IMG/VR virus record: IMGVR_UViG_3300031673_000253
Location: 1 to 34,715 of that record
DNA: 34,715 bases
Reading direction: 5' to 3' (one strand)
Source of the DNA: a virus
This document shows, piece by piece, positions 2,049-33,265 of this stretch (positions are counted from its first letter, which is position 1; every line of letters begins with the position of its first letter). The position numbers were made by a program, and so were the translations under genes. The notes below the pieces were generated by a model that searched no databases, was not told the DNA's origin, and was given only the letters and a program-made list of their open reading frames with translations.

Positions 2049-2060
2049 GGACGGTTGTCG

Positions 2061-4028
2061 ATGGCTGGAAACGATGGATCAGACGCTAGTTTCACTAGCG
2101 ACGCGAGACGGTTCGATCCGCAGAAGCAATACCCGCACCCGTTCTTCGATATCTCGCTCAAGTACACTCCGACCACAGTCAAGGAGATGTACCGTTGGGC
2201 TCAGTTCATCTACTCAACCAACCCGGTCTTTCAGCAGATCGTCCGCAAGCTCGCCGGCTACGTTACAACCAATCTTCTGATCAACTCGAAGAACAGCCAG
2301 GCTATTGAGCATTGGGATCAACTGCTGAACGGACAGCTTCAGTACAAACGGTTCGAGAAGCGCATGCTCCTGGACCGATACGTTTTTGGCAACGCGTATG
2401 CGATGTTCCTGTGGCCGACACGTAAGTACCTGAAGTGCCGCAAGTGTGACACCGAGACGGCGCTCGACAGCATTTCCTGGAAGTTTGAGGATTTCAAGTT
2501 CATTGCTGCGTGCACGAAGTGCAAAGCCTACGGACCGATGAAGGCTATCGAGAAGAAGGTTCAGAGCCGGAAGAAGGTCAAGCTCCTGAGAATCGACCCC
2601 AGGTTGATCTCTCCGATCTATGAACCGGTCACCGACTCCTACACGTACACGTACAACATCCCCAAGTCAGTCGCCGCGGTATTGAGGTCGTCAACCTACC
2701 GCCGTGAGCACATGAACCTGTTTCTCAACAACCTGCCTCTGGCGGTGATTGAGGCTGTGAAGACCAACACCCTCGTCAAGTTTGACGAAGGTCAGATCTA
2801 CCACATGAAGTCGGATTCGATCAGCCAGGACGATGCGTCCCTTGGCGAGATCCCGTTCATGCCCATCTTCAAGGTCATCTGGTTGTATCACACCATCTGG
2901 CGGTCGCAGGAAGCTGTGTCGTTGGAACGCATTCTCCCGTGGACGGCGTTGTCGCCGAGGGCTACCGCTACAGCTGACCCCATCTCGTCGATCAACCTCG
3001 ATGAGTGGAACACGAAGATGACCGGCAACATCGATCGCTGGCGCCGCGACCCCAACTACGTCGCGCTGATGCCGTACCCGATGGATGTCATCAACCTTCG
3101 TGGCGAAGGTAAAGCTCTCGACAACTGGGAAGGTCTCACCCACCTCCGCGACCTTATGGGCGCGGGCATGGGAGTACCCCCAAGCTTTCTGTTCGGCGGC
3201 TCAGTCTATTCAGGCGCCAACGTCGAGTTGCGTGTGCTTGAGAACGACATGCGGAACGACGTCCTCATGCTCGACGACATGCTCACGAAGTTTGTCGTAC
3301 CCAAGCTGCAGACGTTCGGTCGTATGCCGAAGGCCGACATCAAGCATGAAGACTTCAAGATGGCTGACGACGTTCAGCAGAAGGGTTTGATCGTCTCTCT
3401 GCGCTCAGAGGGCGTGGTGTCCGACGAGACCCTGCTCACCGAGCTTGGTCTGGATCCGGACGAAGAAGCCAGGAAGATCGAGAAGGAGCAGGAAGCAAAG
3501 CGTTCGCAGCAGATTCAGATGCAGCGCGAGCAGCAGGAGCTCCAGCTTGAGTTCCAGAAGAAGCAGATGGCCTTGCAGGAAGAGGCCAGCATGCGCCAGA
3601 TGCAGATGCAGATGCAGATGCAGCGGCAGCAGCAGGAGGAGCAGATGGCCATGCAGCAGCAGGCTAATGCTGATATGGTGGCTCAGGGTATAGACCCGGC
3701 CACAGGGCAGCCACCTATGGCTCCTCAGCAACCTGGAGCTGCACAGCAGCCGGGAGGTCAGCCGGCACCGGCACTCCCAAAAGCGGCTAGTCCCATGCTT
3801 CCGCAGGATGTTCGTACACCGGACATCGCTGAGATGCAGGCTAGATCGTGGTTGGCGACCACCAACCCGGCTCAACGTAAGAACGAGCTGGCTCAGCTCT
3901 CGAAGACCGACCCCGACCTGGCTAGGTTGATCGGGAACAAGCTGAAGCGGTTGACCCAGGATCAGAAGGCGGCTAATAAGCCGATGAACGAGGTTCGTCC
4001 TCCGTCAGGCAAAAGCGCAACGATATGA
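2061..4028 (+). CDS. Portal protein with zinc-ribbon insert and Met/Gln-rich coiled coil
   Basis: Portal: the dodecameric ring at one capsid vertex through which DNA is packaged and ejected and to which the neck attaches. Support comes from overall length (about 655 residues), the motif GAGMGVPPSFLFGG typical of portals near residues 368-381, and the following helical stem region. Four cysteines at 126, 129, 151 and 154 (CxxC, 21 residues, CxxC) look like a zinc ribbon. Residues about 475-545 form a Gln/Met/Glu-rich helix, likely a coiled coil, encoded partly by a hexanucleotide repeat. A Pro/Gln/Ala-rich linker and a basic C-terminus follow. The ATG at 2061 has AAGGA nine bases upstream. A TTG at 2055 in frame is less likely. 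The next gene overlaps by four bases (ATGA). Confidence 0.85.
   Translation: MAGNDGSDASFTSDARRFDPQKQYPHPFFDISLKYTPTTVKEMYRWAQFIYSTNPVFQQIVRKLAGYVTTNLLINSKNSQAIEHWDQLLNGQLQYKRFEKRMLLDRYVFGNAYAMFLWPTRKYLKCRKCDTETALDSISWKFEDFKFIAACTKCKAYGPMKAIEKKVQSRKKVKLLRIDPRLISPIYEPVTDSYTYTYNIPKSVAAVLRSSTYRREHMNLFLNNLPLAVIEAVKTNTLVKFDEGQIYHMKSDSISQDDASLGEIPFMPIFKVIWLYHTIWRSQEAVSLERILPWTALSPRATATADPISSINLDEWNTKMTGNIDRWRRDPNYVALMPYPMDVINLRGEGKALDNWEGLTHLRDLMGAGMGVPPSFLFGGSVYSGANVELRVLENDMRNDVLMLDDMLTKFVVPKLQTFGRMPKADIKHEDFKMADDVQQKGLIVSLRSEGVVSDETLLTELGLDPDEEARKIEKEQEAKRSQQIQMQREQQELQLEFQKKQMALQEEASMRQMQMQMQMQRQQQEEQMAMQQQANADMVAQGIDPATGQPPMAPQQPGAAQQPGGQPAPALPKAASPMLPQDVRTPDIAEMQARSWLATTNPAQRKNELAQLSKTDPDLARLIGNKLKRLTQDQKAANKPMNEVRPPSGKSATI
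3597..3623 (+). repeat. Tandem CAGATG hexanucleotide repeat in portal gene
   Basis: Four perfect CAGATG units followed by CAG. They encode alternating Gln-Met in the portal coiled-coil region. The surrounding sequence is also CAG-rich. In-frame expansion or contraction by slippage would add or remove Gln-Met pairs without breaking the gene. Confidence 0.9.
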
Positions 4029-4354
4029 CCGAGAAGAAAAAGACCAAGAAGAAGGCAGCTCCTCGCCGCCGGCAGAAGCCTACAAAAGAAGAACTCTCTG
4101 GCATCGAACCCATCCAGAAGCCCGAGGCTGATGACCGTACACTGAGTAGTAGGTTAGGCTCGGGAGGACGTAAGTACGCTGAGATATTCCACCTTCATCT
4201 TCCGTCAGATAACATCAAGTACCACGAGATCATCAATAATCAGGACAGGTACACAGTCCTGGAGACTGAGTTTACCTGGAACAAAGACAAGGGTTCGGTC
4301 ATCGGTCTGACATTTTACCTGCGCTACGTGGACCGGGATGCTGAACCCGAATAA
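4025..4354 (+). CDS. Small basic hypothetical protein
   Basis: A 109-residue protein of unknown function. The first 22 residues are dominated by Lys and Arg (MTEKKKTKKKAAPRRRQK), which would suit nucleic-acid or acidic-surface binding. The rest looks like a compact beta-rich domain (FHLHLP, YTVLETEFTW, IGLTFYLRYV). Its ATG overlaps the portal stop by four bases (ATGA), so it is translationally coupled to the portal. It directly precedes the RNA polymerase gene. A partner role with the portal or with the polymerase is conceivable, but only position supports it. Confidence 0.75.
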   Translation: MTEKKKTKKKAAPRRRQKPTKEELSGIEPIQKPEADDRTLSSRLGSGGRKYAEIFHLHLPSDNIKYHEIINNQDRYTVLETEFTWNKDKGSVIGLTFYLRYVDRDAEPE

Positions 4355-4389: not shown

Positions 4390-7300
4390 ATGCTGTCCAT
4401 CACAGAGCAGTTTCAAAACCTACTCGATGATGTAAAAAGCCAGGTCGGCGAGACATTCCCGATCGAAGGCCGCAAGCGTACACTCCGAGCCAAGAACCTC
4501 AAGTACGACAACGCCGGCGCAGAGCGGATGATGGACTGGTCCGAGATCCGCAAGGTCAAGGACAACGAAGGCACCTTCGCTTCTAACCTCAGAGGCGACC
4601 TGGAGCTGGTCGATAACGAAACCGGCAAGGTAGTCGATTCCCATAAGAACGCTGTGCTGGCCCGCGTCCCCCACATGACCGGCCTGGGCAGCTTTGTCAT
4701 CAACGGAAAAGACCTTCAGATTGTCAACCAGCTTCGTCGCCGTCCGGGTATCTACCCCAGCTTCACGCCGGACGACAACGTCAAGACCAAGCTGACGTCC
4801 ACTGGTGCTGACTACGACGTAACTCTCGACCGTAAGACCGGTCAGTACCTTATGAAGGTTGGCACCTCGAACCTGAAGCTGGTTCCGTTCCTGGAAGGCA
4901 TCGGTGTCAAGTCCAAGGACATCATCGACGCCGTAGGCGAAGGGTCGTACTCCGAGAATGCGGCAGCCGGGGGCAAGCGTGATGAGGTGATGCGCTTCTG
5001 GAACAAGGTCCGGTCGAAGGCTCCGTCTGAGGACAGGGCGACACTGGTCAGCGACATCAATGAGTTCCTGGAGTCGAAGCCTCTGGACCCTGACGTTTCC
5101 CAGGAGACCATTGGCAAACGCCACGACAAGATCTCAGCGTCCGCTCTGGTGGACGCTATGCGTGCCGCCAAGGAAGTCGCTCAAGGTAAGCGGAAGCCTG
5201 CCGACATGGAGTCGCTGTCGTTCAAGTCGATCCACAGCGTCGAAGACTTCGTAGGTGATCGTCTTCGTAAAGCACTCCCCGGTATCAAACGTAGTCTCGG
5301 ATACACCGTAGATCGCGGCCTCCCTAAAATTCGCCGGATCATCGGACCTGACGTGCTCAGCAAGCCGATCATGTCCCAGTTCACCACGTCGGAGTTCACG
5401 CGGTATTCCGACCAGAACAACCCCATCGACATTCTCAGCAAGCTGCAGGCTGTCACGGTCATGGGTGAAGGCGGTATCTCCAGCATTCACCGCGTGACGG
5501 ACGAGGTTCGAAACCTGCACTCGACGCACCTGGGTTTCATCGACCCCGTGCACACCGCAGAGAACGAGCTGATCGGTCTATCGAACCACTTGACCGAAGG
5601 TGTTACCAAGAAGGGTAATCACCTTTTCCGTCAGGTGTTCGACGTCAAACAGAAGAAGATGGTTAGCAAGAGCCCGGTGGAGCTGTCCCGAGCCGTCGTC
5701 GGGTTCCCTGACGAGTACAAGGTCGACGATCCGAAGCGCCCGAGGTCTTTCACGGCGCTGAAGTCCACCGTGCTGGCCATGGACAAAGGCGTATTCACCC
5801 AGATGCCGGCCAAGAACGTCGACTACATCATACCGACGACCAGCGCTCCGTTCAGTTTTGCTACTAACGCAGTTCCGTATCTACACTCCAACAGCGGCGC
5901 CAGAATGCTGATGGCCGGCCGTCACATGGAGCAGGCAGTGCCTCTCGTTGAGCGAGATGTTCCGCTGGTGCAGTCTGAATACCACGGCCACCCGTACAAC
6001 GACATCGTCGGGTCGGTGATGTTGACCAAGTCTAAGAAGCCTGGCACCGTCACGAAGGTTACGTCCGAAGAGATCCACATCCGCCACGACGGGGACAAGA
6101 AGGCCCAGGTCTATAAGATCCCCGACCACTACGCTCTGAACTCGGAAGCCTTCATGACTGAGGCTCCCGCGGTAAAGGAAGGCGATAAGGTCAAAGCTCA
6201 TCAGCCCCTTACAGAGTCCAACTTTTCGAAGAACCAGAGCCTGGCCGTCGGGAAGAACCTGGTCACCGCGTTCATGCCTTGGAAGGGTCACAACTTCGAA
6301 GACGGTATCGTGATCTCCGAGTCCGCGTCGAAGAAGCTGGCGTCAGAGCACAAGCACGAGCTGAGAGCAGAGAAGAACCAGAACACTGTCCTGTCCTCGA
6401 AGAAGCTGTTCGCTCAGTTTCCTCACCTGAAGACGCCCGACGCCTGGGCGGAAGGGCGAGAGGATATCCTCAAGGTTGGCGACGTAATCAAGCCGGGTCA
6501 GATCATCATTCCGTCCATCACGAAGAACGTGTTGGGCCCACAGACCGAGTACGACCGTATCCACAAGGCTTTGACCAAACCGTTCAAGGACACCAGCGTC
6601 CGGTGGATGGAAATGGTCGACGGTGAGGTTGTCCGCGTCGTGAACAACCCGAACTTCACCAAGGTCTATGTGAAGACCCGTGAGCCCATGGTTATCGGCG
6701 ACAAGTTGTCCACTCGTCACGGTAGCAAGGGCATCGTCACCAAGATCACGCCGGACAATGAGATGCCCCGCGACGCGGAAGGCGGCACGGTAGATGTGTT
6801 GTTCAACCCGTACGGTATCCCTGGCCGGATGAACCCTGGCATCATGTTCGAGACGGCCATGGGCAAGGTCGCCCTGAAAACCGGCAAGAACATCACGGTG
6901 AAGAACTTTGGCGACCTGAAGTCGCAGGTCAAGGACATCCAGGCTCAGCTCAAGAAGCACGGCTTGTCTGACACCGAGACCTTGTGGGATCCAACACACA
7001 ACACCAGTCACGAGAACGTGCTTACCGGCCCGCTTCACTGGATCAAGCTGAAGCACCAGGTCCGGAATAAGCTGTCGGCTCGTGGGCACCAGGACGCCTA
7101 CACCGTAGATGGTAGGCCGGCAAAGGGCGGTGTCGGAGCTCTCGACGAATCTACCTCTGCGCAGTCCATGGGGCCGTTGGAGATCTACTCTCTGATGGCA
7201 GGCGGGCAGACCGAGTTCCTGAAGGATGTGGCGGGCATCAAGAGTAATCGGAACGTCGATTACTGGAACGCGTACCAGTTGGGTATGCCTACTCCACCGC

Positions 7301-10300
7301 CTCTGGTTCCGCAGGTTCTGGACAAGTTCCACAAGTACCTTCAGGGCGCCGGCGTGAACCTCCGGATGGAAGGTAACACGATCAAGGCTCTTCCGATGAC
7401 GGACAAGGACATTCTTGCCCGCAGCCGAGGTGAGATCACAGAGCCCACCGTTGTACGTACTTCGGGTCAACACCTCGTCGAAGAGAAGGGCGGCCTGTTT
7501 GACCGTGGACTCACCGGCGGAACTCAAGGAAAAGACGACCACTGGACGCACATTGAACTGGCCGAGCCGATCCTTCACCCGTTGTATGAAGCGCCGGCAA
7601 TGGCGCTGACAGGGCTCAAGAAGAAGGACTTCGACAAGGTCCTGGCCGGAAAGACCTACGTCGACCTGGCCGGGGATCTTCACGACGCTCCGGGTAAAGA
7701 CCGCGTAACTGCAGGTCTGGCTATGGAACGTTTGCTGGGCAAGATCGACGTTGAAGCGGATCTCCGTTCAGCACGGTCAAAGCTTCGATCGGTGAACAAG
7801 ACCGACCGCCCTAAGCTCATGAAGAAGGTACGCTACCTCACTGCCCTGAAGAACATGGGTGTGACACCGAAGGACTCTTTCATCAACAAGCTGATCCCGG
7901 TGATTCCGCCGAGTGCACGTCCGATCTACGCCATGGGGGATGGCAACCTGAATGTCGCCGACCCGAACCACGGCTACCGTGAGGTGTTGTTCGTCAACAG
8001 GGCTCTCAAAGACTTGAAGAAGGCGAAGGTAGACGAGGACCTGCTTCAACCTCAGCGCGAAGGCCTCTACCGGTCTGTGGTGGGCATGGTTGGTCTGGCA
8101 GAGCCGATGACCCGTAACGCCAACTTCAAGGGGTTCATCTCGGCCATTGCCGGCCCGCAGAACAAGCTTGGGCTGTTTCAGTCCCAGGTGGTGAAGCGTA
8201 CCCAGGACCTCACCGGACGCTCAACCATTATCGTTGATCCGACTCTCCACGTAGATGAGGTTGGCATCCCGTTCAAGATGGCGCAGAAGATCTTCGCGCC
8301 TTTCGCCATCCGCAATATGGTCACTTCTTACGGCATGAAGCCGATCGATGCGCGTACAGAGCTGGAAGAGATGACCCCTCGGGCCATGAAGGTCCTGGAG
8401 AACATCGCGGCTGAGCGTCCGGTAATCATGAACCGTGCTCCGTCGCTGCACAAGTTCAGCACCGTGGCTGTAAAAGCACGGCTGGTGCCAGGTCAAGCCA
8501 TCCAGGTCAACCCGTTGATCGTAGGTGGACTCAACGCTGACTTCGATGGTGATACCGTGGGTATCCATGTACCTGTGTCGGAGAAGGCCAGGCTTCAGTC
8601 TTGGAACCTGCTGCCATCCAGGACGTTGCTGTCACCAAAGGATCTCAGCGTCATTCACGGTCCAGCCAAAGAAGCTCTGTTCGGCTTGTTCGCTATGACC
8701 ACTCCGACCTCCAAGAAGGCGGTGAAAGTTACCGGAGCGGCTGAAGTGATGAAGATGGTGCAGTCCAACAAGCTGCGTCCGAACGATCCGGTTTCCTACA
8801 AAGGCAAGAACTGGACTGCCGGCCACTTCATGATCAACGCTGAGCTCCCGACGGAGTACCACATCGATCATGAGCCGATGACCGGTGGCAAGACGAAGGA
8901 CTTGATCAACACGTTGGCCAAGGACCCTAAGTACCGCCTGAAAGCCGGCGACATCATCACAAAGCTAAAGGACCACGGGTTCCTTCAGGTATCCAACCTG
9001 GGTACGTCGATAGGGCTGAGTGACCTTACCAGCACGCAGCTCGACGGCATGCACAACAAGATCATGCCGAAGGTTATCCAGATGGCCAAGACGAACCCGC
9101 TCAAGGCGATCATGTGGGGTTCAGATCAGGCCGGCAAAGCCATGGACAAGGTCACGAACAACCGCATGGCGAATCTGACCTACAAGTCTGGAGCCGCCGG
9201 CAAGTACAAAGGCAACGTGCAGCAGATGGTCCTGGCGCCCGTTGGCGTGCAAGACGTGAAGGGTAACGTCGTTCCAGTACCTATTACTCGTGGGTACGCT
9301 GAGGGTATGAATCTCGGCTCGTACTGGGCAACTCTGCCTGGTATGCGCAAGGGCATCGCTGACCGGGCTCTCGCCACAGCTGACACAGGTTCGTTCGCCA
9401 AGGAACTTCAGAACACCACAATCCACATGAGGATCACCGAGGAAGACTGCGGGACTACGGACGGTATTGACCTTCCGATAAACCACCCTGACATGTCCGG
9501 CCGATTCCTGGCGTCTAACGGACGCATGCTCGACGGCTCAATGATGAAGTCTTTGAGGTCTAAGAACGTAAAAATGCTCAAGGTCCGGAGCCCCGCTACT
9601 TGCCACGCACACAGCGGCATCTGCGCGAAGTGCATGGGCACCAACGAACACGGAGGGCTCTACAACAAGGGCTTCCACATTGGCACCCTGGTGGGCACGA
9701 CCATCTCTGAGCCTCTGACCCAGATGGTCATGCGTACATTTCACACCGGCGGACAGGTTGGACAGACCGAGGTGGGCTACAAGCGCATCGCCCAGATCTT
9801 CAACATGCCGGCCAACATGCGCGGCAAGACTCCTCTGTCTACCCGTGACGGCACTGTAGATCACATCGCTGACACAGATCGTGGCGGCTACGAAGTTCAC
9901 GTTGACGGAGTGAAGCACTTCGTTCCTACAGAGCTGAACCTGAAGGTGAAGGTTGGCGACAAGGTGCTGGCCGGAGACAAGCTCAGTCACCTGGGCGTTA
10001 CCCACCCACGGGAGCTTGCTCAGCACAAAGGTATCGAAGCTGCTCGCGACCTTCTTCTCAACGACATTGACGTCGAAATGAAGCTCTCCAAGCAGAATGT
10101 CCGTCGTAGAATCTTCGAGGCTGCCATCCGTCCACTGATCGACAAGTCGATTGTCGTCGACGCCGGAGACGCTGAGAAGGCTCACGATATCCAGTCAGGG
10201 GACGTAATCAGCTCGAATTACGCCCGTCACCTGAATAGGAAACTGAAGAATCCGATGAAGATTGAGCCTCACCTGATGAGCGTGAAAGAAGTACCCTTCA

Positions 10301-10479
10301 CCTCGTCTGACTTCATTGGTCCGTTGATGGCGCAGAGGTTGCCTCGTACATTGAAGCAGGCTCCAGCTATTGGCGCGATTACGAAGCTGAAGGGGTTCGA
10401 CGCGCATCCGATTGTTGAGTTCGCCTACGGCAAGATGGCGGAGTACGAAGGCCTGACGGTTATATGGAACAACGACTAG
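4390..10479 (+). CDS. rpoBC: Single-chain DNA-dependent RNA polymerase: fused beta and beta-prime subunits
   Basis: A 2029-residue fusion of bacterial-type beta and beta-prime, carrying out template-directed RNA synthesis. Beta landmarks: DQNNP of the rifampicin region (341-345), AFMPWKGHNFEDG (E637, D638), GDKLSTRHGSKG with the two active-site lysines K772 and K780, NPYGIPGRMNPG (about 807), and the C-terminal clamp helix ending near 995. Beta-prime starts almost at once (MTDKDILARSRGE, about 1003). It has GRSTIIVDP, the Mg-binding NADFDGD (D1384, D1386, D1388), the bridge helix around GMRKGIADRALATADTG (1651 on), a zinc site (C1687, C1738, C1745, C1748) and the trigger-loop motif MRTFHTGG (1781-1788). 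The beta-prime N-terminal zinc module is missing. Start: TAG lies two codons upstream, so ATG 4390 (or GTG 4387) with GGGA at 4379. It is shorter than E. coli beta plus beta-prime (about 2750), consistent with absent lineage inserts. The next gene overlaps by 16 bases. Confidence 0.96.
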   Translation: MLSITEQFQNLLDDVKSQVGETFPIEGRKRTLRAKNLKYDNAGAERMMDWSEIRKVKDNEGTFASNLRGDLELVDNETGKVVDSHKNAVLARVPHMTGLGSFVINGKDLQIVNQLRRRPGIYPSFTPDDNVKTKLTSTGADYDVTLDRKTGQYLMKVGTSNLKLVPFLEGIGVKSKDIIDAVGEGSYSENAAAGGKRDEVMRFWNKVRSKAPSEDRATLVSDINEFLESKPLDPDVSQETIGKRHDKISASALVDAMRAAKEVAQGKRKPADMESLSFKSIHSVEDFVGDRLRKALPGIKRSLGYTVDRGLPKIRRIIGPDVLSKPIMSQFTTSEFTRYSDQNNPIDILSKLQAVTVMGEGGISSIHRVTDEVRNLHSTHLGFIDPVHTAENELIGLSNHLTEGVTKKGNHLFRQVFDVKQKKMVSKSPVELSRAVVGFPDEYKVDDPKRPRSFTALKSTVLAMDKGVFTQMPAKNVDYIIPTTSAPFSFATNAVPYLHSNSGARMLMAGRHMEQAVPLVERDVPLVQSEYHGHPYNDIVGSVMLTKSKKPGTVTKVTSEEIHIRHDGDKKAQVYKIPDHYALNSEAFMTEAPAVKEGDKVKAHQPLTESNFSKNQSLAVGKNLVTAFMPWKGHNFEDGIVISESASKKLASEHKHELRAEKNQNTVLSSKKLFAQFPHLKTPDAWAEGREDILKVGDVIKPGQIIIPSITKNVLGPQTEYDRIHKALTKPFKDTSVRWMEMVDGEVVRVVNNPNFTKVYVKTREPMVIGDKLSTRHGSKGIVTKITPDNEMPRDAEGGTVDVLFNPYGIPGRMNPGIMFETAMGKVALKTGKNITVKNFGDLKSQVKDIQAQLKKHGLSDTETLWDPTHNTSHENVLTGPLHWIKLKHQVRNKLSARGHQDAYTVDGRPAKGGVGALDESTSAQSMGPLEIYSLMAGGQTEFLKDVAGIKSNRNVDYWNAYQLGMPTPPPLVPQVLDKFHKYLQGAGVNLRMEGNTIKALPMTDKDILARSRGEITEPTVVRTSGQHLVEEKGGLFDRGLTGGTQGKDDHWTHIELAEPILHPLYEAPAMALTGLKKKDFDKVLAGKTYVDLAGDLHDAPGKDRVTAGLAMERLLGKIDVEADLRSARSKLRSVNKTDRPKLMKKVRYLTALKNMGVTPKDSFINKLIPVIPPSARPIYAMGDGNLNVADPNHGYREVLFVNRALKDLKKAKVDEDLLQPQREGLYRSVVGMVGLAEPMTRNANFKGFISAIAGPQNKLGLFQSQVVKRTQDLTGRSTIIVDPTLHVDEVGIPFKMAQKIFAPFAIRNMVTSYGMKPIDARTELEEMTPRAMKVLENIAAERPVIMNRAPSLHKFSTVAVKARLVPGQAIQVNPLIVGGLNADFDGDTVGIHVPVSEKARLQSWNLLPSRTLLSPKDLSVIHGPAKEALFGLFAMTTPTSKKAVKVTGAAEVMKMVQSNKLRPNDPVSYKGKNWTAGHFMINAELPTEYHIDHEPMTGGKTKDLINTLAKDPKYRLKAGDIITKLKDHGFLQVSNLGTSIGLSDLTSTQLDGMHNKIMPKVIQMAKTNPLKAIMWGSDQAGKAMDKVTNNRMANLTYKSGAAGKYKGNVQQMVLAPVGVQDVKGNVVPVPITRGYAEGMNLGSYWATLPGMRKGIADRALATADTGSFAKELQNTTIHMRITEEDCGTTDGIDLPINHPDMSGRFLASNGRMLDGSMMKSLRSKNVKMLKVRSPATCHAHSGICAKCMGTNEHGGLYNKGFHIGTLVGTTISEPLTQMVMRTFHTGGQVGQTEVGYKRIAQIFNMPANMRGKTPLSTRDGTVDHIADTDRGGYEVHVDGVKHFVPTELNLKVKVGDKVLAGDKLSHLGVTHPRELAQHKGIEAARDLLLNDIDVEMKLSKQNVRRRIFEAAIRPLIDKSIVVDAGDAEKAHDIQSGDVISSNYARHLNRKLKNPMKIEPHLMSVKEVPFTSSDFIGPLMAQRLPRTLKQAPAIGAITKLKGFDAHPIVEFAYGKMAEYEGLTVIWNND

Positions 10480-11651: not shown

Positions 11652-13436
11652 ATGACTGAAAACCTCTTCGTTGACCTTCCCACGTTCCAGTTCAACAAGG
11701 TGGCTGATGTTCGACTTCCCGCTGACACTACTCAGTGGGAGCACGCGATTTTCAATGCGTTGTCGGATCAACACCCCAACCTACCCACGGATCAGTTCCG
11801 CCTGAGCCTCAACTCTCAGGACGAAGGAACACGTAGCGCCATCGGAAACATCGTCATCCGTGACGGTCTCCAGATCCCGGTCATCGTTGACCAAGGGAAG
11901 CTGAAGCCGTTCGACATGTTCCTGAACGACGGCAAGTTGTACTCCATGGACGCGGATACTCTGGCCGAGGCGGTTCAGAACACCGGCTTTGGTGAAATCA
12001 TGCCTCCAGGCCAGGGTGAGATCATGGACGTGTTCCTCACTCACAGCCGGCCCCCGTATGACGGCAAGTACACCTTCGCTGCGTACCTTGGTGGCAAGAA
12101 CGAGTACCTTGAGGCTCTCACCAGAGTCATGGGTGAGAAGACAGCTTCCTTCGTAGAACAGGACACCGCTGTCCTGGGCATGCTCAAGGACGCCGGAACC
12201 AAGACCTACGATCTGCAGGTAAAAACGAAGACTGCTTCCATCGTGAAGCAGGCCGCTGTTCCTATCCAGAACGAGATCTACCGCCCCATCGTCAGCTCTG
12301 GTTGCTACAAGGTAGCCAGCTACGACGGTAAGCGGTATCGCGGGTGGTTCATCCAGCGACCGTACGATCCGGGTTTTGACGGACCGTCCAATATGTTCGT
12401 TCCGTTCTCCAAGCACGCGTACGCGCTCAAGCTCGGAACCAACGAGTCCCTGCGCGACATCGGCGGAATCGAAGAAGAGTCCATGGGTCGTCTTCCTGAT
12501 GACGACACCCGAGGACACGGAGCCTTCTGCTGGATCAACAAGCAGGGCGAGCTTAGAAGCACGGTTCCGATGACGATTCTCGGACAGTCGGTGTCAGGAC
12601 ACTACGCCAAGACCGCGTCAGTGCTCAGCCAGTCCATTCGTGTTGAGAAGGACGACGACCTTGATGAGCCGATCACGCTCGGCGGGGTAATGTACGTCCC
12701 TAAGCACGCCAACTGGATGCACATCAACGACAACGAGATCGACCTCAAGGAGGCCGCTACTCAGCCTCTGTTCGATCGCCCGTTCATGACGATCTTCCGT
12801 ACCTCCGACGATCGGTACCGTGTCGACATGCCGTCGAACGTCAAGCAGGCCTGCTTCGATGACATGCCCGAGAGCATGAACAAGAAACAAGCCTCGGATT
12901 TCCTCAGTAACCTGTACGAACATGAGAGCGTATCCACAGTGCTCAGCACCATTCAGGCTCGCGGGTCTGTGATGCTCCGTGCTCCGCTCGTATCGAAAAC
13001 AGCCGGGCTGGACAGTACGAAGCTGGCCACCGTGTGTGCGAAGTTTGTTCCGCGGATGAAGAAGCACGCTGAGGAAGCTCTCAAAGCCTTCATCTCTATG
13101 CGCTACCTTCCGGACCTGACACTGCTGAAGCGTGTGGGTATGGTACTCCCTCTTGCTAAAGTAGCCGCCGACGACCTCATGCAAGATGACGTCGACGAAG
13201 GATTAGACGCCACTCTTGGGTTGAATATCTTGACCGAAGAGAACATCATGAAGTATCTTGATTACGTCGATTTGTTGGACTCCGCGAGACAGGCCGCATT
13301 GAAGCTTCTCCTGGCCGCACGTCTCGGGCTTCCGGTCGACGAAGGCGCCGCTCGGTCTGCCGCATTCTCTTTGGATGCGCTGATCTCCGACCTCCGCCAG
13401 CTTAGAACCATACAAACGCCGGCTGGCAACATGTGA
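11652..13436 (+). CDS. Large hypothetical virion protein with five KTAS-type motifs
   Basis: A 594-residue protein of unknown family. It has no signal peptide or obvious membrane segment. The first about 120 residues look like a mixed alpha/beta domain, and the last about 150 residues are helical and Leu/Ala-rich. It holds five strict K-[TVIL]-A-[SG] motifs: K163-S166, K193-S196, K220-S223, K320-S323 and K449-G452, plus looser ones (NKVAD, TKLAT, AKVAA). These divide it into about six segments. If the motif is a protease site, this would be heavily processed during head maturation. It starts at an ATG six bases after the spike stop, with GGGG upstream, and its stop overlaps the next gene (TGATG). 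Confidence 0.75.
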   Translation: MTENLFVDLPTFQFNKVADVRLPADTTQWEHAIFNALSDQHPNLPTDQFRLSLNSQDEGTRSAIGNIVIRDGLQIPVIVDQGKLKPFDMFLNDGKLYSMDADTLAEAVQNTGFGEIMPPGQGEIMDVFLTHSRPPYDGKYTFAAYLGGKNEYLEALTRVMGEKTASFVEQDTAVLGMLKDAGTKTYDLQVKTKTASIVKQAAVPIQNEIYRPIVSSGCYKVASYDGKRYRGWFIQRPYDPGFDGPSNMFVPFSKHAYALKLGTNESLRDIGGIEEESMGRLPDDDTRGHGAFCWINKQGELRSTVPMTILGQSVSGHYAKTASVLSQSIRVEKDDDLDEPITLGGVMYVPKHANWMHINDNEIDLKEAATQPLFDRPFMTIFRTSDDRYRVDMPSNVKQACFDDMPESMNKKQASDFLSNLYEHESVSTVLSTIQARGSVMLRAPLVSKTAGLDSTKLATVCAKFVPRMKKHAEEALKAFISMRYLPDLTLLKRVGMVLPLAKVAADDLMQDDVDEGLDATLGLNILTEENIMKYLDYVDLLDSARQAALKLLLAARLGLPVDEGAARSAAFSLDALISDLRQLRTIQTPAGNM

Positions 13437-14554
13437 TGGCGGGAAAAACAAGCTTGTCGAAGTCAGGTATATGCACTACGTATGGCCTGACTGAAGCTAC
13501 GCTTGCCCACCTTGAAGACCTCGACCTGTTTGACTCAACAGGTGGAAAGGTTATTCGAGGTGAGCGTCGTTATCCTATTTCAACTAGCCTGCAGGACGTT
13601 TTTGAGCTAGGCAAGGCGCACTTTCCAAACCTGCGCTCCGAGAAGACCCCGCTATTTCCGTTTCAACGAGCCATCATCTTTTATCTGCTCTCCGTCGGGC
13701 CTGACATGGCCTACCAGATACTCACGGAGAGAGGGTTCGTGCCGGCTAAGCGTCCGACTCAAGAATACTTCAAGATGTTGTTCAACAAGCTCGTAGCTGC
13801 TGCTCCGAAGTCCATCAAGAAGTGGGTGAAGAGAGAGCAGGAGCTCCCGACCGCCTCCAACGAGAAAGCCGTCGAGCTGTACCTGGATATCCTTGGGCTA
13901 GGTGCGTTCTGGGAAGACCCTGATCAAGTAGAGCTTCCATTCTTGTACGACGACCTGATGGTCCGGTCCACCTTGGAAGGGCTCCTCTGCACACAGGCGA
14001 AGTACGAAGAGATCGCCGATATCCTCTCGGCTCAGTTTGACCTGGATGTTCATACAGAGGACGTAGAGATCTATCACCGGTTCTACTTCGACCGGGAGTT
14101 GGTGCCCAGCGCGGACTTCGTTCTGTGGAGAGATTCTCTCGGGACCAATCACAAGGTTCATATCCGAAACAGCATGAACCTGACTCTGTCGGAGTACGTG
14201 AGGAAGTTCCGTGTTGAAAGAACCCTGGATACAGCTGAAGAGTTAGACGCTATGCTCTCAGTGTCTCAGCAGGGTTTTTGGCAGCACAAAGAAGCGGCGA
14301 GCTACGGCTCGCTGGAGGCGTTGAAAAAACAACAGATCCTTGTACAAAACAGCCTGAGGATCTTTGAAGCTAGGGTGAGCCTCGTTCCGACCAACGTCGG
14401 GACTATCAACGACCGCTTGAAACTGGAGTTCGAGAAGCCGACCAACCTTCAGATTGTGAACCGTGACGACTTTGACCCGAACGAAATCGACTCGCCGAAG
14501 ATCTCGAAGGACGCAGGCCTCAGCGATACTTCGGCCAAAGAGCAAGGCGCCTAA
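13436..14554 (+). CDS. Helix-turn-helix protein upstream of large terminase (possible small terminase)
   Basis: A 372-residue protein. Near the N-terminus, TTYGLTEATLAHLEDLDLF followed by GERRYPI resembles a MerR-like winged helix-turn-helix. A second helical DNA-binding-like stretch around residues 185-215 (CTQAKYEEIADIL, then FDLDVHTEDVEIYHRF) has the look of the recognition region of packaging or regulatory proteins. Position directly before terL is the usual place of the small terminase, which recognises phage DNA for packaging. However, 372 residues is long for that family, so the role is inference. ATG 13436 overlaps the previous stop (TGATG). A GTG at 13433 is also in frame. The next gene starts after seven bases if the terminase begins at 14562. 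Confidence 0.65.
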   Translation: MAGKTSLSKSGICTTYGLTEATLAHLEDLDLFDSTGGKVIRGERRYPISTSLQDVFELGKAHFPNLRSEKTPLFPFQRAIIFYLLSVGPDMAYQILTERGFVPAKRPTQEYFKMLFNKLVAAAPKSIKKWVKREQELPTASNEKAVELYLDILGLGAFWEDPDQVELPFLYDDLMVRSTLEGLLCTQAKYEEIADILSAQFDLDVHTEDVEIYHRFYFDRELVPSADFVLWRDSLGTNHKVHIRNSMNLTLSEYVRKFRVERTLDTAEELDAMLSVSQQGFWQHKEAASYGSLEALKKQQILVQNSLRIFEARVSLVPTNVGTINDRLKLEFEKPTNLQIVNRDDFDPNEIDSPKISKDAGLSDTSAKEQGA

Positions 14555-14561
14555 GCTACAG

Positions 14562-16178
14562 GTGCTGGATGCTTTGCATGAAGAAGACGACTCTGAGGAA
14601 TATCTCAGGGCTCCTCGGTCTGAAATTTTCCAAAGGATCATCCACATCCGCCCGTCGATCCCGTACTCACTACAGGATCGACCATACCTTCGTGAAGTCA
14701 TCGAGCTGGCCGCCCCAGAGACCGTACTGAAGTGCGGCCGGCAGGTGGGCAAGAGTGTTCTTCTGGCGGCAGACGAAGCCACTGAGGGTGCTCGCATCCC
14801 CGACCTTGGTCACCTGTACATCGCTCCGCGAGGAGAACAGGCGGCTACCTTCTCGCGAATGGTGTTCGACGTCATGTGCCGGTCGTCGCCGTATCTGTCC
14901 TGGTTGATTCCTAAGGGGTTGAAAGCTGTTTGGCAGATCGGCACCCGGATGATGACCAACGGGTCTTATTTTTACTTCAGATCTACGTTCAACTCGCCTG
15001 ACGCGATCCGTGGTCTCACGGCGTACCGCATCAAGTTTGACGAGTTCCAGGACATCCCGTCGGATCACATTGGTCCGATCGAAGAAGTCGCAGGTAACGC
15101 TCCCATCCACCTGAAGAAAATCATCAGGGCGGGCACTCCCAAGACCTTCGACAACCCGCTGGAGAAGTACTGGGCGATGAGCTCGCAATGTGAGTGGCAC
15201 ATCAAGTGCCAGTCCTGCGGATTCTACAACTTCCAGGACGTGAAGCTTCTGCGCCCGGACCGGTTCGCTTGCCGTAAATGCGATGGGACCTTGTACCCGC
15301 ACCTCGGTGTGTGGGTCCCTGGTCAACCGGGGATGCTCGGGAAGCGTAACGGATGGCGAATCACCCAGCTGATGAACCCGAACAAGACCCCAGAGGAACT
15401 CTGGGACAAGATGCACAACTACCCCATGTCGCAGTTCATGAACGAGGTCATGGGTCTCAGCTACGCCGAAGGTCAGTTGCTGTTGTCTCAAACAGACATC
15501 CAGCGGGCCTGCAACCCCCGCCGTAAGATGGCCGGCGTCGGGCAGCTTCACGACTTCCATGTGGTGGCCGGTATCGACTGGGGAACTGGCGGCCTGGGGG
15601 CTCACACCGTAAAGGGGTCAACCAGGGTGTCGTACACAACCCTGACCATCGGAGGCATCCGTGCTGGACAGTTCCACGTCATCTACCAAAAGAGGTTCAT
15701 GGGAGCAGAGGCTGAGCTCTCCAACCAGCCTGAGATGCTCAACCACCTTATGACGGCGTTTCGTGTCAGATGCGTGTTCTCTGACTGGGGCTTCGGTGCC
15801 CCGCTGAACGCCATCTTGATGAACCAGTACGGTTGGATGCACCGTAACCTGTTCCAGATCCAGGAAGGTGCTCAGCGGGATATGATCCGATGGAGCAAAG
15901 AGTCCGGGCGGTACACCATCGACCGGAATGAAATGTTCATCAAGGTCATCGACGACATCAAGCACGGTCGTATCGAGTTCTTCTCTTATGATGAGTTCAA
16001 GGAGTTCGAAGAGGACTACACCTCGATTTACGTTGAATTGAACGCTAACAAGCGCCGGATGAAGTTCGATCACACTAAGCCGGACGACTGTTTTCACTCT
16101 ACCAGCTACGCGTATTTTGCTGCATTGAAGCTGGCCGGAGCACTAAGCCGCTACGATATGACCTCTTTGGTTCCTTGA
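14562..16178 (+). CDS. terL: Terminase large subunit (ATPase and nuclease) with zinc ribbon
   Basis: The DNA-packaging motor and headful or site-specific nuclease. Numbering from GTG 14562: Walker A variant CGRQVGKS (58-65), Walker B IKFDEFQD (157-164), a zinc-ribbon-like pair of CxxC (C216/C219 and C237/C240) between ATPase and nuclease, and RNase H-like nuclease acidic residues in GIDWGTGG (D339), FSDWGFG (D408) and PDDCFHS (D508, D509). Length, about 538 residues, fits the family. The frame extends upstream to a GTG at 14463. That would overlap the previous gene by 92 bases and add a strange Arg/Ser-rich leader, so I prefer 14562. Neither start has a good ribosome binding site. A TTG at 14574 is another option. 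Confidence 0.92.
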   Translation: MLDALHEEDDSEEYLRAPRSEIFQRIIHIRPSIPYSLQDRPYLREVIELAAPETVLKCGRQVGKSVLLAADEATEGARIPDLGHLYIAPRGEQAATFSRMVFDVMCRSSPYLSWLIPKGLKAVWQIGTRMMTNGSYFYFRSTFNSPDAIRGLTAYRIKFDEFQDIPSDHIGPIEEVAGNAPIHLKKIIRAGTPKTFDNPLEKYWAMSSQCEWHIKCQSCGFYNFQDVKLLRPDRFACRKCDGTLYPHLGVWVPGQPGMLGKRNGWRITQLMNPNKTPEELWDKMHNYPMSQFMNEVMGLSYAEGQLLLSQTDIQRACNPRRKMAGVGQLHDFHVVAGIDWGTGGLGAHTVKGSTRVSYTTLTIGGIRAGQFHVIYQKRFMGAEAELSNQPEMLNHLMTAFRVRCVFSDWGFGAPLNAILMNQYGWMHRNLFQIQEGAQRDMIRWSKESGRYTIDRNEMFIKVIDDIKHGRIEFFSYDEFKEFEEDYTSIYVELNANKRRMKFDHTKPDDCFHSTSYAYFAALKLAGALSRYDMTSLVP

Positions 16179-16229: not shown

Positions 16230-17576
16230 ATGGATCTGACAGCTTACGAGCTTGCCAGAATGGCGAACAAAGCCGCCAGTGGTTTCTCTGAGACCGGGGA
16301 CCTGACCTCGGAGGTAGCCAAGATCGCTTCTGAAAGCGAATTGACTCCTCCGCAGATCCAGACCCTGGTTACAGAATCAAACCACGAGGTGAATCGTCGT
16401 CTGTACACCACAGAAGACGATAAGCGGTTCGCATTCAAGGTGGCAACTCTCGATGGAGTCCTGGACTCCTTGAACGGAAAGTCTGAGCAGCCGAAGATAG
16501 CTTCGGTGGTCAGCTCGGGTTTCCATACTCTCGACGTGGATGCACAAAAGACTGCATCTGCTGCTGACAGGATTGAGCCCGACTGGATCAGAGATCCTGA
16601 GACTCGTTTGAGGGACACGAAAGTCTACCTCAAGCAGGCCGCTGAGAAGCTCCAGTCCTACGCCGACTCCTGTGCCTCGAAGAAGAACGTGCTGACCCTC
16701 AAGATCGGCGAGTCCAAAGCTCGCGCTCTTGGTGAGATCAAGCAGCTCGTTCGGAACGGCACTCCGTTCAGCACCCTGTACAAGGCGGCTCAGCGCTTCC
16801 ATCCTGATACCCCGAAGGCCGTTCGCGGCTTTTTCGAAGGGTTCCACGGTGAGTATTCCAAGACAGCTTCTGCGGTTGAAAAGGAACTGCTGAAGTTTGA
16901 TCCGGAAGCCCTCGACGGCAAGGACGAGATCGGTACCAGGATCGTGAACGGTAACCATCCCCTGTTCATCCACCTGGACGACATGGCTGCTGACCTCAAA
17001 GAGTACAGCGACGTCAACACCTGCGATGAGGGCCTGAGGAACACCTTCAGTGCGGTTACCTCAGCGATCCACCGGTTGAACACACCGAAGGACGTCGACA
17101 ACTACCTGGCAAACGAATCCCAGCGGTTTGCTTACGCCGTGAAGAAGGGCATGGACGAGGCGCTGGACGCCATCGTCGAGCTCAGGAGTGTGCTCCCAAA
17201 AACTGATGGGCACGATTCTGACAAGACGGCCGGGTGGAGAGATAACTTCGCAGCGAAGTATCCCCGTTCAGGTCGTGCCCTGAAGTACGTTACTACCCCG
17301 TCCGGCGGTGTCCGTGCAGCTGGAGCGGCTCTGGCTGCCCCGGTCGTAGGTGGCGCCAAAGTCCTCAAACACTCTCCGGCCATTGCTAAGGCTACAGGCG
17401 CTGCGCTTACAAGTCCTCTGGGACTGGGTAAGTACAATGCCCCCGGACTGGCGTCTCTTGCCGGCCTGTTGTGGGCAGGGTCTAAGGCAGTCAAAGGCGT
17501 AGGTGATGCCGCAGGCCAGGCGACAAACGCAGCCATGGCAGGTGGATCAAGATCGGCCGGCGTAGGCCTGGCTTAG
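16230..17576 (+). CDS. Putative internal virion protein with repeated KTAS-type motifs
   Basis: A 448-residue protein of unknown family. Residues 1-320 are helical and charged, while the C-terminal about 100 residues are rich in Ala, Gly, Val and Leu with alternating hydrophobic stretches (AAGAALAAPVVGGAKVL, LASLAGLLWAGSKAV). These could associate with membranes or form a buried bundle. Strict K-[TVIL]-A-[SG] motifs lie at K31, K89, K107, K211 and K332, with KAAS near residue 14. A Gly/Ala hydrophobic tail of this kind occurs also in its neighbour and at the protease C-terminus, which suggests a shared function such as ejection or inner-head assembly (inference). Start: ATG with GAGGA eight bases upstream after a 51-base gap, where I found no convincing promoter. 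Confidence 0.7.
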   Translation: MDLTAYELARMANKAASGFSETGDLTSEVAKIASESELTPPQIQTLVTESNHEVNRRLYTTEDDKRFAFKVATLDGVLDSLNGKSEQPKIASVVSSGFHTLDVDAQKTASAADRIEPDWIRDPETRLRDTKVYLKQAAEKLQSYADSCASKKNVLTLKIGESKARALGEIKQLVRNGTPFSTLYKAAQRFHPDTPKAVRGFFEGFHGEYSKTASAVEKELLKFDPEALDGKDEIGTRIVNGNHPLFIHLDDMAADLKEYSDVNTCDEGLRNTFSAVTSAIHRLNTPKDVDNYLANESQRFAYAVKKGMDEALDAIVELRSVLPKTDGHDSDKTAGWRDNFAAKYPRSGRALKYVTTPSGGVRAAGAALAAPVVGGAKVLKHSPAIAKATGAALTSPLGLGKYNAPGLASLAGLLWAGSKAVKGVGDAAGQATNAAMAGGSRSAGVGLA

Positions 17577-18377: not shown

Positions 18378-18695
18378 ATGGGTCTGTACGACAACATCCG
18401 TTCGAAGACTGAGGACACGCAGACAAGCGGTCCTCGTACTCATCAGCGTGGTGATCTCGCACCGATTCCGGAGATGATTGGCGGTCCAGCTGCGGACATC
18501 CACTCTGCTCCGTTTCGTGGGGAAGAAACAACGACGTCTTTTGACAACCCTCGGGCTTTGCCGGCAGTTCCTCCAGAGCTGGCTGAAGCCATGGAAGAAA
18601 ACGAGCTTCCTGATCATGGGCCGGCTAGAGGTGCGGCAATACTCAGGAAAGCGGTGATACAGATGTTGGCCAACGCTCACAAGGAAGGTATCTAG
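18378..18695 (+). CDS. Small hypothetical protein
   Basis: A 105-residue protein of unknown function that starts MGLYDNIR. It is Pro-, Glu- and Arg-rich and probably disordered in the middle, with a C-terminal helix (ARGAAILRKAVIQML). A GTG at 18369 in frame would add three residues. No good ribosome binding site is visible for either start. The stop overlaps the GTG start of the protease gene (TAGTG), so translation of the two is probably coupled. A small protein fixed just upstream of a prohead protease could be a core component or protease partner, by position only. Confidence 0.65.
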   Translation: MGLYDNIRSKTEDTQTSGPRTHQRGDLAPIPEMIGGPAADIHSAPFRGEETTTSFDNPRALPAVPPELAEAMEENELPDHGPARGAAILRKAVIQMLANAHKEGI

Positions 18696-23376: not shown

Positions 23377-23426
23377 AGCTTGGTCCCGTAGATTTTCGGT
23401 GTGCTTCACTTTTGAAAGGAACGACG

Positions 23427-24554
23427 ATGAGCTTGGTTACCGCCGAAGAATTCAATCCCGTGTTCTTCGACGCGCTCCGTCACAACGAGTTCACGAAGGC
23501 AGGCCAGGTTGTTGGTGACTACATCCAGGAACGCATCCGCGAAAGCGGCTTTGCACGCAAGATCCTGGACGTGCAGACTGTCACTGAGAACGACCGCGGC
23601 ATGCAGGTGGACCCGAACGGCGCACACGACGGTTTTGAATACGTCGTACCCATCGAACCCAACACGGTAGCACAGCGTGTTGATTTCCGTGGTGAGCCGG
23701 AGCGTGTCTGGATTCCGGGCAATCGCTTTGCGATTCGCTTCCAGAAGATCTCCACCAACGAGTTCACGAAGCCCGAGGAAGAACTTCTCGCGCACCGTGA
23801 GCCGGTCCTGAAGATCATTGAGCAGAACAGCATCAAGGATATGCAGGAGCAGGAGGACATTGCGTTCCTCGACCACGCGAAGACCTGTGCAGGTCTGAGC
23901 ACTCTGCGCCTGAACGAATCCCCGGCAGCCACTGGTGGCTTCCTTGGGTTCACCACTGGTGCACAGGTGGATGCGTTCTTCAAGGGTGCAGCTCCGGTTG
24001 CCAACCCTCGGACAGCGAACATCACCCTGTCACCGAACAACTACTTCCGTCGTGATACCATCGCCGACATGGCGAAGATCCTGCTGGCACGCCAGCTGGA
24101 GCTGAAGGTGTTCCTGATGTCCGCACAGGACTTCGTGGACACTCTTCGATGGTTCGCGGACGAAGTGGGCCATGACATTGCCACGAAGATCACCATCGGT
24201 GGCTACAAAGAAGCAACCGTTGGTGGCTACACCTTCGTCACCACGATCAAGACCAACCGTCGCCTCGTGCAGCCGGGTCACATCTACGGCTTCGCTGACA
24301 AGACGGCCCTGGGCAAGTTCCTGATTCTGACCGCTCCGAAGTTCTGGTTGAATAAAAGAGCGAACCTGATTCAGATGCAGGCCTGGGAAGTCATCGGTGC
24401 AGGCATCGGTAACATCAACGGCTGCGCGATCATCCTGCTTGCAGGCGCTGAGCCTCTGGATCTTCCGGTTCCGCCGGAAGTGTTCACCAGCGGTTTCCTT
24501 CGGATTTATCCGGAAGGCGTCAACCGCGCAGGTGGTGCAAACCCGGACGAGTAA
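23427..24554 (+). CDS. Major capsid protein (HK97-fold type)
   Basis: A 375-residue protein forming the icosahedral shell (inferred). Support: length, position after protease/core genes and before a terminator and neck genes, strong AAAGGAAC ribosome binding site. The sequence has the usual order: an N-terminal arm (MSLVTAEEFNPVFF), an E-loop-like beta stretch (about 60-100), a long spine-helix region (EEELLAHREPVLKIIEQ), then a mixed A/P domain ending with WEVIGAGIGNINGCAIILL and a short C-terminal arm. There is no K-x-A-S motif, so no processing by that route is predicted. An in-frame TTG at 23412 lies inside the ribosome binding site region and is rejected as start. Confidence 0.8.
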   Translation: MSLVTAEEFNPVFFDALRHNEFTKAGQVVGDYIQERIRESGFARKILDVQTVTENDRGMQVDPNGAHDGFEYVVPIEPNTVAQRVDFRGEPERVWIPGNRFAIRFQKISTNEFTKPEEELLAHREPVLKIIEQNSIKDMQEQEDIAFLDHAKTCAGLSTLRLNESPAATGGFLGFTTGAQVDAFFKGAAPVANPRTANITLSPNNYFRRDTIADMAKILLARQLELKVFLMSAQDFVDTLRWFADEVGHDIATKITIGGYKEATVGGYTFVTTIKTNRRLVQPGHIYGFADKTALGKFLILTAPKFWLNKRANLIQMQAWEVIGAGIGNINGCAIILLAGAEPLDLPVPPEVFTSGFLRIYPEGVNRAGGANPDE

Positions 24555-33228: not shown

Positions 33229-33265
33229 CAACGGAGAGTGCGATTGCACTCTCCGTTGTTTTGTT
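33229..33265 (+). terminator. Strong intrinsic terminator ending the rightward cassette
   Basis: A perfect 13-bp stem, CAACGGAGAGTGC with GCACTCTCCGTTG, closes a GATT loop and is followed by TTTTGTT. No A-run lies on the other side, so it should act mainly for plus-strand transcripts. The T-run overlaps the stop codon of the convergent sigma gene (33264). Confidence 0.92.

Follow-up and report, generated by a model that had tools for sequence, protein, structure and literature searches.

Can a phage encode a whole bacterial-type RNA polymerase (RNAP) core in one gene, and is such an enzyme carried in the virion? Cellular RNA polymerases have five core subunits, and their assembly path is directed by alpha. 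In the 34,715-nt stretch of viral DNA analysed here (IMGVR_UViG_3300031673_000253, referred to as the window), positions 4390-10479 of the plus strand form a single open frame of 2029 codons, which an initial annotation had read as a one-chain phage RNAP lying within a structural cassette. This reading stands, although the "spike" label given to a neighbouring gene does not, and a sigma factor gene had been missed.

Results

One frame encodes both large subunits

The product of the frame matches Pfam domains of beta (Rpb2_6, 5e-57; Rpb2_3, 3.5e-13) followed, in the same protein, by those of beta' (Rpb1_2, 6e-27; Rpb1_5, 1.5e-17; Rpb1_1, 1.4e-9), the profile search thus recovering RpoB- and RpoC-type domains in order. 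Its top matches by sequence and by fold are bacterial RNAP chains, a bacterial beta' in the PDB matching at 1e-82. Open frame, Pfam domains and alignment with E. coli all confirm that one uninterrupted frame carries beta motifs and then beta' motifs, as had been claimed.

The probability that the frame is an artefact of assembly or sequencing, or a piece of bacterial chromosome, is negligible. A second contig (IMG/VR 3300031669_000409) is 99.98% identical to the window across 16,340 bp, with 3 mismatches; a 194-kb sister genome has the identical single-frame layout, with an RNAP of 66% amino-acid identity; and at least five further lineages carry the one-chain RNAP with the joint at the same place. 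A false join of two genes, the objection that the initial annotation had raised against itself, is thereby excluded. A bacterial chromosome fragment or a recent capture of a host gene is likewise ruled out by the phage structural genes that flank the RNAP and by the tree, in which both halves cluster with phage relatives. Between the window and the sister genome, pN is 0.24 and pS is 0.74 for the RNAP, and the chain is under strong purifying selection.

Table 1. Features of the window at and around the polymerase gene.
Feature	Position	Strand	Basis or remark
Portal homologue (Arash gp204)	2055..4028	+	homology
Small protein, 109 aa, between portal and RNAP	4025..4354	+	conserved in sister genome
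One-chain RNA polymerase core, beta + beta'	4390..10479	+	2029 aa
Beta part, residues 1-994	4390..7371	+	RpoB alignment stops at E994 = E. coli E1340
Active-site lysines K772/K780 = E. coli K1065/K1073, beta barrel	6703..6729	+	
Joint, one residue, G995	7372..7374	+	E. coli alignment and AlphaFold2
Beta' part, residues 996-2029	7375..10476	+	E. coli alignment
Site of missing beta' N-terminal zinc ribbon (E. coli C70/72/85/88)	7531..7536	+	alignment
Mg-binding Asp triad D1384/D1386/D1388 (NADFDGD) = E. coli D460/462/464	8539..8553	+	
Position of the Arash/D69-type beta' gene split	8794..8808	+	uninterrupted here
Second zinc site C1687/C1738/C1745/C1748 = E. coli C814/888/895/898	9448..9633	+	
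Trigger loop MRTFHTG, catalytic H1785	9730..9750	+	MRTFH = 1781-1785
393-aa protein overlapping the RNAP stop codon	10464..11645	+	counterpart only in sister genome
Arash virion protein gp218 homologue	11652..13436	+	
Terminase large subunit, GpA_ATPase type	14463..16178	+	PF05876; Arash gp1
Arash virion protein gp220 homologue	16230..17576	+	
Arash virion protein gp222 homologue	18695..20494	+	
Major capsid protein (Arash gp226)	23412..24554	+	
Arash virion protein gp236 homologue	28871..32377	+	
Sigma-70-type factor, regions 2 and 4 (Arash gp196 type)	33264..34037	-	

Residue equivalences (Table 1) were taken from an alignment of the chain with E. coli RpoB and beta', which extends along both subunits and includes the bridge helix, the trigger loop, the clamp region and the flap region. 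The first aligned beta' residue, N996, corresponds approximately to E. coli D18, the first ~17 residues of E. coli beta' being missing from the chain. As beta ends at E994 and beta' starts at N996, the linker is one residue, close to the earlier estimate of almost no linker (beta ending near 995, beta' starting at 998-1003). Judged by its sequence, the chain is a two-barrel, bacterial-type RNAP core with every catalytic motif intact. In AlphaFold2 the joint region forms two adjacent strands (positions 690-695 and 698-703 of the model). Structure prediction, a check proposed in the initial annotation, returned bacterial RNAP folds as matches; however, the models are moderate (pLDDT 74 and pTM 0.59; pLDDT 65 and pTM 0.46) and the Foldseek TM-scores of the RNAP models are ~0.4, so that the domain arrangement is unconfirmed. 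The alignment also shows that several rifampicin-contact positions are altered relative to E. coli (H526 to K351, R529 to A354 and S531 to T356), from which transcription by the phage enzyme is predicted to resist the drug.

The polymerase lies in a conserved head-gene cassette

The order portal, RNAP, gp218-like protein is conserved, and the portal gene reported earlier beside the RNAP is the homologue of gp204 of Salmonella phage Arash. Counting only loci where a portal was found, and including redundant contigs, the portal homologue lies at most 800 bp upstream of the RNAP in 30 of 41 loci and 5 kb off in 5 more. Only 4 of 50,697 phage records contain portal homologues, every one of them Arash/D69-type. 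The window shares with the Arash-like lineage the portal, capsid, terminase, gp218 and RNAP genes in a common order. The gene overlapping the RNAP stop codon yielded neither a family match nor a solved-structure match, leaving its identity as a "spike" unsupported.

Fusion and later split

Trees were built with FastTree and with IQ-TREE in fast mode; a scan of genome contigs had supplied mostly ordinary bacterial rpoB and rpoC, which served as outgroups, and a few phage-like contigs in MAGs. When each half of the chain was placed separately, as had been suggested at the outset, both clustered with phage relatives and not with bacteria. In these trees, which contain no sequence known as mReC, the phage RNAPs cluster together beside bacteria. 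All beta-beta' fusions fall into a single clade, Arash and the Vibrio phages D69, D148 and D181 among them; these isolates have the joint but carry the second half of beta' as a separate gene, a split restricted to one sister branch. The tree favours an ancient fusion of beta with beta' that happened once, beta' having been split later, also once. Judging by the position of the phage fusion among phages, it would be independent of the rpoBC fusions of Helicobacter and Wolbachia. Rather than an isolated oddity, the RNAP is a single branch within a large family of phages whose fusion is apparently ancestral. An intron linking the two genes was rejected for D69, where no Rfam intron was found at the split, and for Arash, where the 4.8-kb gap contains genes on the opposite strand.

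Comparison with known polymerases

Arash gp206 plus gp216 (PMC10585845; OQ632216) and their D69/D148/D181 counterparts are homologous to the window protein along the chain and have the same joint, with 30% identity over the first 1468 residues and 24-30% over the remainder. They lie in the same cassette (portal, small gene, RNAP, gp218), and the capsid, the terminase (Arash) and the sigma factors are related as well. In contrast to the unsplit window chain, their beta' is interrupted past the Asp-triad barrel, the rest being encoded by a second gene, and their trigger loop reads STKHD where the window has RTFHT. Arash gp206 was annotated merely as a beta subunit, in a paper without remark on the fusion (PMC10585845).

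The mReC phages (Weinheimer and Aylward 2020, PMC7481178) are also tailed and have a bacterial-like beta and beta' branching beside Bacteria; their paper mentions fusion for crAssphage only and handles beta and beta' as two subunits. By its capsid and terminase the window does not belong to this group: its capsid protein has no match to the mReC family PF07068 (no Pfam match at E<=0.01) and its terminase is of PF05876 rather than PF03237. The phiKZ/AR9-type RNAPs resemble the window enzyme in being multisubunit-type, in lacking alpha and omega and in having a virion form, but they consist of four or five polypeptides, with two enzymes per phage and no sigma-70 (PMC7598289), whereas the window lineage has one chain, one enzyme and sigma factors. 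An unsplit chain and one RNAP per genome in 14 relatives exclude it from that type. Both barrels also share one polypeptide in crAss phi14:2 gp66, P23-45 gp64/gp96 and YonO, some of which are virion enzymes; these form a separate, highly diverged clade (PMC10770324, PMC5467207), while the window chain has a nearly full-length bacterial beta and beta' detected by ordinary Pfam models. Such easy matches to cellular models (Rpb2_6 and the PDB beta', above) set it apart from the crAss/YonO type. The best NCBIfam matches are fused rpoBC models, in which beta precedes beta' in one chain (Helicobacter/Wolinella, PRK09603; Wolbachia, PRK14844; PMC11515920). These are, however, host genes of about 2840-2890 aa, and the window chain scores far below their cut-offs (436 bits against 5372 for PRK09603; 396 against 4632 for PRK14844), which rules out membership.

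Partner subunits

Neither an alpha nor an omega gene was found in the window, as stated in the initial annotation, which had overlooked the sigma gene on the minus strand. In the 14 related genomes PF01000 and PF01192 gave zero matches, with control families detected in 13-14 of them, and PF01193 gave two, both under the family cut-off. Each of these genomes has a single beta'-barrel polymerase. A gp10-type sigma, related to the Arash virion sigma, is present in all 14 and the gp196 type of the window in 11, the latter being a type absent from the Arash virion protein list. The gp10 type was found in the 194-kb sister and not in the 34.7-kb window. An SNF2 helicase adjoins the C-terminal beta' gene in Arash and occurs in its virions, but searches of the sister genome and of the two other one-chain genomes tested did not find it, which rules it out as a universal partner.

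Virion proteomics of Arash

In Arash, the best-studied relative in this lineage, proteomics identified the RNAP subunits gp206 and gp216 as virion proteins. The most-detected protein was gp206, with 128 peptides and 3516 spectra; the major capsid protein gave 1333 spectra, gp216 1210 and the sigma factor gp10 467 (PMC10585845). In semi-quantitative terms, spectra per residue are alike for gp206, gp216 and gp10 (2.3, 2.0 and 2.0), the pattern expected of a complex, and gp206 exceeds nearly all listed structural proteins by this measure. The list comprises 116 proteins, nucleotide-metabolism enzymes among them, and its authors considered that abundant enzymes might simply have been carried over into virions (PMC10585845). 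The Arash data lend strong, though indirect, support to the packaging suggested in the initial annotation: by analogy, the one-chain RNAP is probably packaged in the virion.

Discussion

We consider it fairly probable that the window encodes a packaged and injected one-chain core, assembled without alpha and switched by two sigma factors. At the joint, a turn of one residue would link the C-terminal strand of beta directly to the N-terminal strand of beta', where separate subunits have two free ends. Such covalent joining could plausibly substitute for the alpha dimer, which in bacteria holds beta and beta' together; this would fit the lack of genes for alpha and omega. As a late product expressed alongside the head genes, the core would be taken up into virions and reach the cell together with the DNA. 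A virion sigma of the Arash gp10 type would then steer it to early phage promoters, and the gp196-type sigma, made during infection, would probably redirect the same or a newly made core to later promoters, as the presence of one polymerase per genome suggests. For the one-chain form we infer activity, packaging, injection, alpha-free assembly and the two-sigma switch.

An active one-chain RNAP might instead stay out of the virion and transcribe middle or late genes, its location among head genes being due to chance. The phiKZ-type phages do possess a separate non-virion RNAP (PMC7598289), carry-over of abundant enzymes is allowed for by the Arash authors (PMC10585845), and the window sigma is of a type not listed in Arash virions. 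However, with just one such polymerase in each of 14 genomes, a conserved RNAP cassette, and gp206 yielding more spectra than the capsid protein and, per residue, more than nearly all listed structural proteins, we regard this as rather unlikely. The fused chain might also require host alpha and/or omega, forming a hybrid holoenzyme. Its strong likeness to bacterial beta and beta' speaks for such a need, as does the fact that the bacterial fusions of Helicobacter and Wolbachia retain alpha. As phiKZ-type phage cores function without alpha or omega (PMC7598289), a hybrid enzyme seems unlikely. Far less credible is a head scaffold or core protein that has lost polymerase activity. Great abundance in Arash virions would be consistent with this, and giant phages have large core-like assemblies of ejected proteins; but the Lys pair, the Asp triad, the trigger-loop His and the zinc cysteines are all kept, selection on the chain is strongly purifying, and sigma factors are maintained in the genomes.

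The packaged one-chain core may be part of a wider scheme, for which we would put the chances somewhat short of even: a self-sufficient, alpha- and omega-free core, forming a holoenzyme of just two proteins with interchangeable phage sigmas, one packaged and one made in the cell, would be injected with the genome and serve host-independent transcription throughout the family, after a single ancestral fusion and with beta' cut in a side branch at a site of the cyanobacterial/phiKZ type.

If the one-chain reading is true, this bacterial-looking enzyme, encoded by one gene, may represent the most minimal form known of the polymerase on which all cells rely, and the virus may read its own genes without the host RNA polymerase. 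A single gene with matching sigma factors can be expressed, mutated and imaged, making it testable whether alpha is needed solely for holding beta and beta' together. A phage family that had been overlooked also comes to light, and its cultured members (Arash, D69/D148/D181) permit study of a packaged polymerase, of early transcription free of host RNAP, and of sigma switching.

Sequence and joint of the one-chain polymerase

The initial annotation had claimed a single 2029-codon frame carrying beta and then beta' with their catalytic motifs, and this was borne out by the uninterrupted frame of the gene for P0001, by Pfam domains in the correct order (beta set first, beta' set after), and by alignment to the E. 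coli RNA polymerase (RNAP). One PHROGs family was matched per part (beta, 24349, 4e-86; beta', 25354, 1e-84), and the closest solved chains were bacterial RNAP subunits throughout (beta' 1e-82, beta 2e-79). The catalytic residues are conserved (two active-site lysines, Asp triad, trigger-loop histidine), as are the clamp region and, in the second zinc site, all four cysteines. Because beta' lacks its N-terminal zinc ribbon and the large inserts of the E. coli enzyme (beta about 938-1040, beta' about 943-1130) are absent, P0001 has only 2029 residues versus 2749 in E. coli.

Where the two parts meet, ...AGVNLRME(994) corresponds to the end of E. coli beta (...LGINIELEDE), and alignment to the beta' stretch FDAIKIALASPDMI starts at N996 (NTIKALPMTDKDI). 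Beta' lacks about 17 N-terminal residues, and the linker is a single residue, G995. An AlphaFold2 model of residues 300-1468 (pLDDT 74, pTM 0.59) has adjacent strands there (model residues 690-695 and 698-703), consistent with a joint that may form a tight hairpin, the pairing being read from the model's secondary-structure string only. Foldseek matched this model to bacterial beta chains (E 5e-43) and a 1300-2029 model to bacterial beta' chains (E 4e-28), with TM-scores near 0.4 for both because the domain arrangement is uncertain.

An assembly artefact was ruled out by a separate IMG/VR contig (3300031669_000409; 99.98% match across 16,340 bp, RNAP gene entirely covered), by the single 2034-codon frame (66% amino-acid identity) of a 194-kb sister genome, G001, and by further one-chain relatives (loci L009, the L025-L030 group, L051 and L069). 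Third-position GC of both halves agrees with that of neighbouring genes. Between P0001 and the sister enzyme, pN was 0.24 and pS 0.74, with synonymous sites near saturation; pN is low relative to pS in each half (beta 0.22/0.72, beta' 0.25/0.75), and beta and beta' are therefore both under purifying selection.

Coordinates of polymerase and sigma features
Feature	Record	Position	Strand	Remark
RNAP, P0001	window	4390-10479	+	one chain
sigma-70-type factor	window	33264-34037	-	sigma regions 2 and 4; Arash gp196 counterpart
gp10-type sigma	G001	108637-109197		
RNAP	L017	9887-16012		four in-frame TGA codons
RNAP	L025	3622-11172		intein-like insert
group I intron + homing endonuclease	L005 (Vibrio phage D181)	2964-3244		splits beta part of RNAP gene

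Relatives and phylogeny

Searching IMG/VR with profiles built from the window, Salmonella phage Arash and Vibrio phage D69 gave 35 and 25 loci, in three gene arrangements: one chain; beta-beta'N plus separate beta'C (Arash, D69 and the majority of other loci); and a further cut within beta'N (L031, L033, L034, L044, L048, L063). More distant relatives (L036-L040) have beta and beta' on separate genes. The Arash/D69 cut lies directly past the Asp-triad barrel, the place described for beta' in cyanobacteria and phiKZ-type phages (PMC7598289). L017 is one chain provided that TGA is tryptophan; two of its TGA codons sit at family-conserved tryptophans (DYW, WSH), which suggests such decoding by the phage or its host. 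No cultured phage with a one-chain RNAP was found. A 2167-codon one-chain RNAP (L069) lies on JAKPDW010000082.1, a probable phage contig whose binning as a deltaproteobacterium hints at the host of the one-chain branch.

In beta, beta' and combined trees (Archaea outgroup), the fused phage RNAPs form one clade, which groups with other phage enzymes adjoining Bacteria. The concatenated tree makes one-chain and beta'-split forms sister groups, and parsimony gives one beta' split; the beta tree alone does not resolve them as clean groups. One fusion followed by one later split is thus favoured, not proven, because some deep supports are modest (SH-aLRT, concatenated tree: fused clade 82.6, all phages 46.3) and near-root labels may change on rerooting.

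In the related RNAPs L025, L042, L050 and L051, intein-like inserts occupy active-site motifs. The sites are the stretch separating the catalytic lysines (GDK/C...GN/S), the trigger loop in L051 and, in L050, a position close to the Asp triad. The L054 beta gene is interrupted at the same point as that of D181. Two diverged beta homologues (L185, L186) on a 211-kb contig (G013:C2) in a Woesearchaeota bin, the contig being possibly a large virus, differ from that genome's own archaeal gene.

Neighbourhood, sigma factors and virions

The window's genes match Arash proteins and follow the Arash order (portal gp204, RNAP gp206+gp216, gp218, gp220, gp221, gp222, capsid gp226, gp233, gp234, gp236, gp237), except that terminase gp1 is inserted. 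Counting redundant contigs, 41 loci with a beta gene had a portal homologue, and in 30 of them it was upstream at a distance of no more than 800 bp. Within a collection of 50,697 phage records, the window's portal is shared by Arash and the three Vibrio phages only.

The window's sigma factor was missing from the initial annotation. The second, gp10-type sigma is absent from the 34.7-kb fragment. In 14 related genomes, whose records may be incomplete, the gp10-type sigma was present in all 14, RNAPs of this kind occurred once per genome, and neither the alpha insert domain (PF01000) nor omega (PF01192) was matched (control genomes positive in 13-14 of 14); PF01193 gave two sub-threshold matches (16.0 and 11.5 bits, cut-off 24).

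In the published Arash virion proteome, no protein was detected more often than gp206, with 3516 spectra, 128 unique peptides and 100% coverage; spectra numbered 1210 for gp216, 467 for sigma gp10, 1148 for helicase gp217, 877 for portal and 1333 for capsid. The list does not name gp196, and it includes enzymes that its authors consider probable contaminants (PMC10585845). Spectra per length, semi-quantitative only, were 2.3 (gp206), 2.0 (gp216), 2.0 (gp10) and 2.4 (gp217), exceeding most structural proteins and lower than capsid protein (4.3). This suggests that a holoenzyme is packaged in Arash virions.

Discussion

Already known are the mReC phage RNAPs, in which beta and beta' are recognisable (PMC7481178), the virion RNAPs of the phiKZ type, fused barrels in some derivatives of the cellular-type clade (PMC10770324), linear-plasmid RNAP fusions (PMC7281927), and the one-chain two-barrel enzymes of crAss, P23-45 and YonO, which belong to a different clade. 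No description of the present beta-beta' fused phage RNAP family was found in the open-access literature.

The gene, its motifs, selection, the cassette, sigma co-occurrence and the Arash virion proteins are the observed basis of a mechanism for which we infer RNAP activity, packaging as one chain, independence from alpha and a sigma switch. The RNAP would be synthesised late, alongside head proteins, packaged, and ejected together with the DNA; it would then carry out early transcription with a gp10-type sigma, which would afterwards be exchanged.
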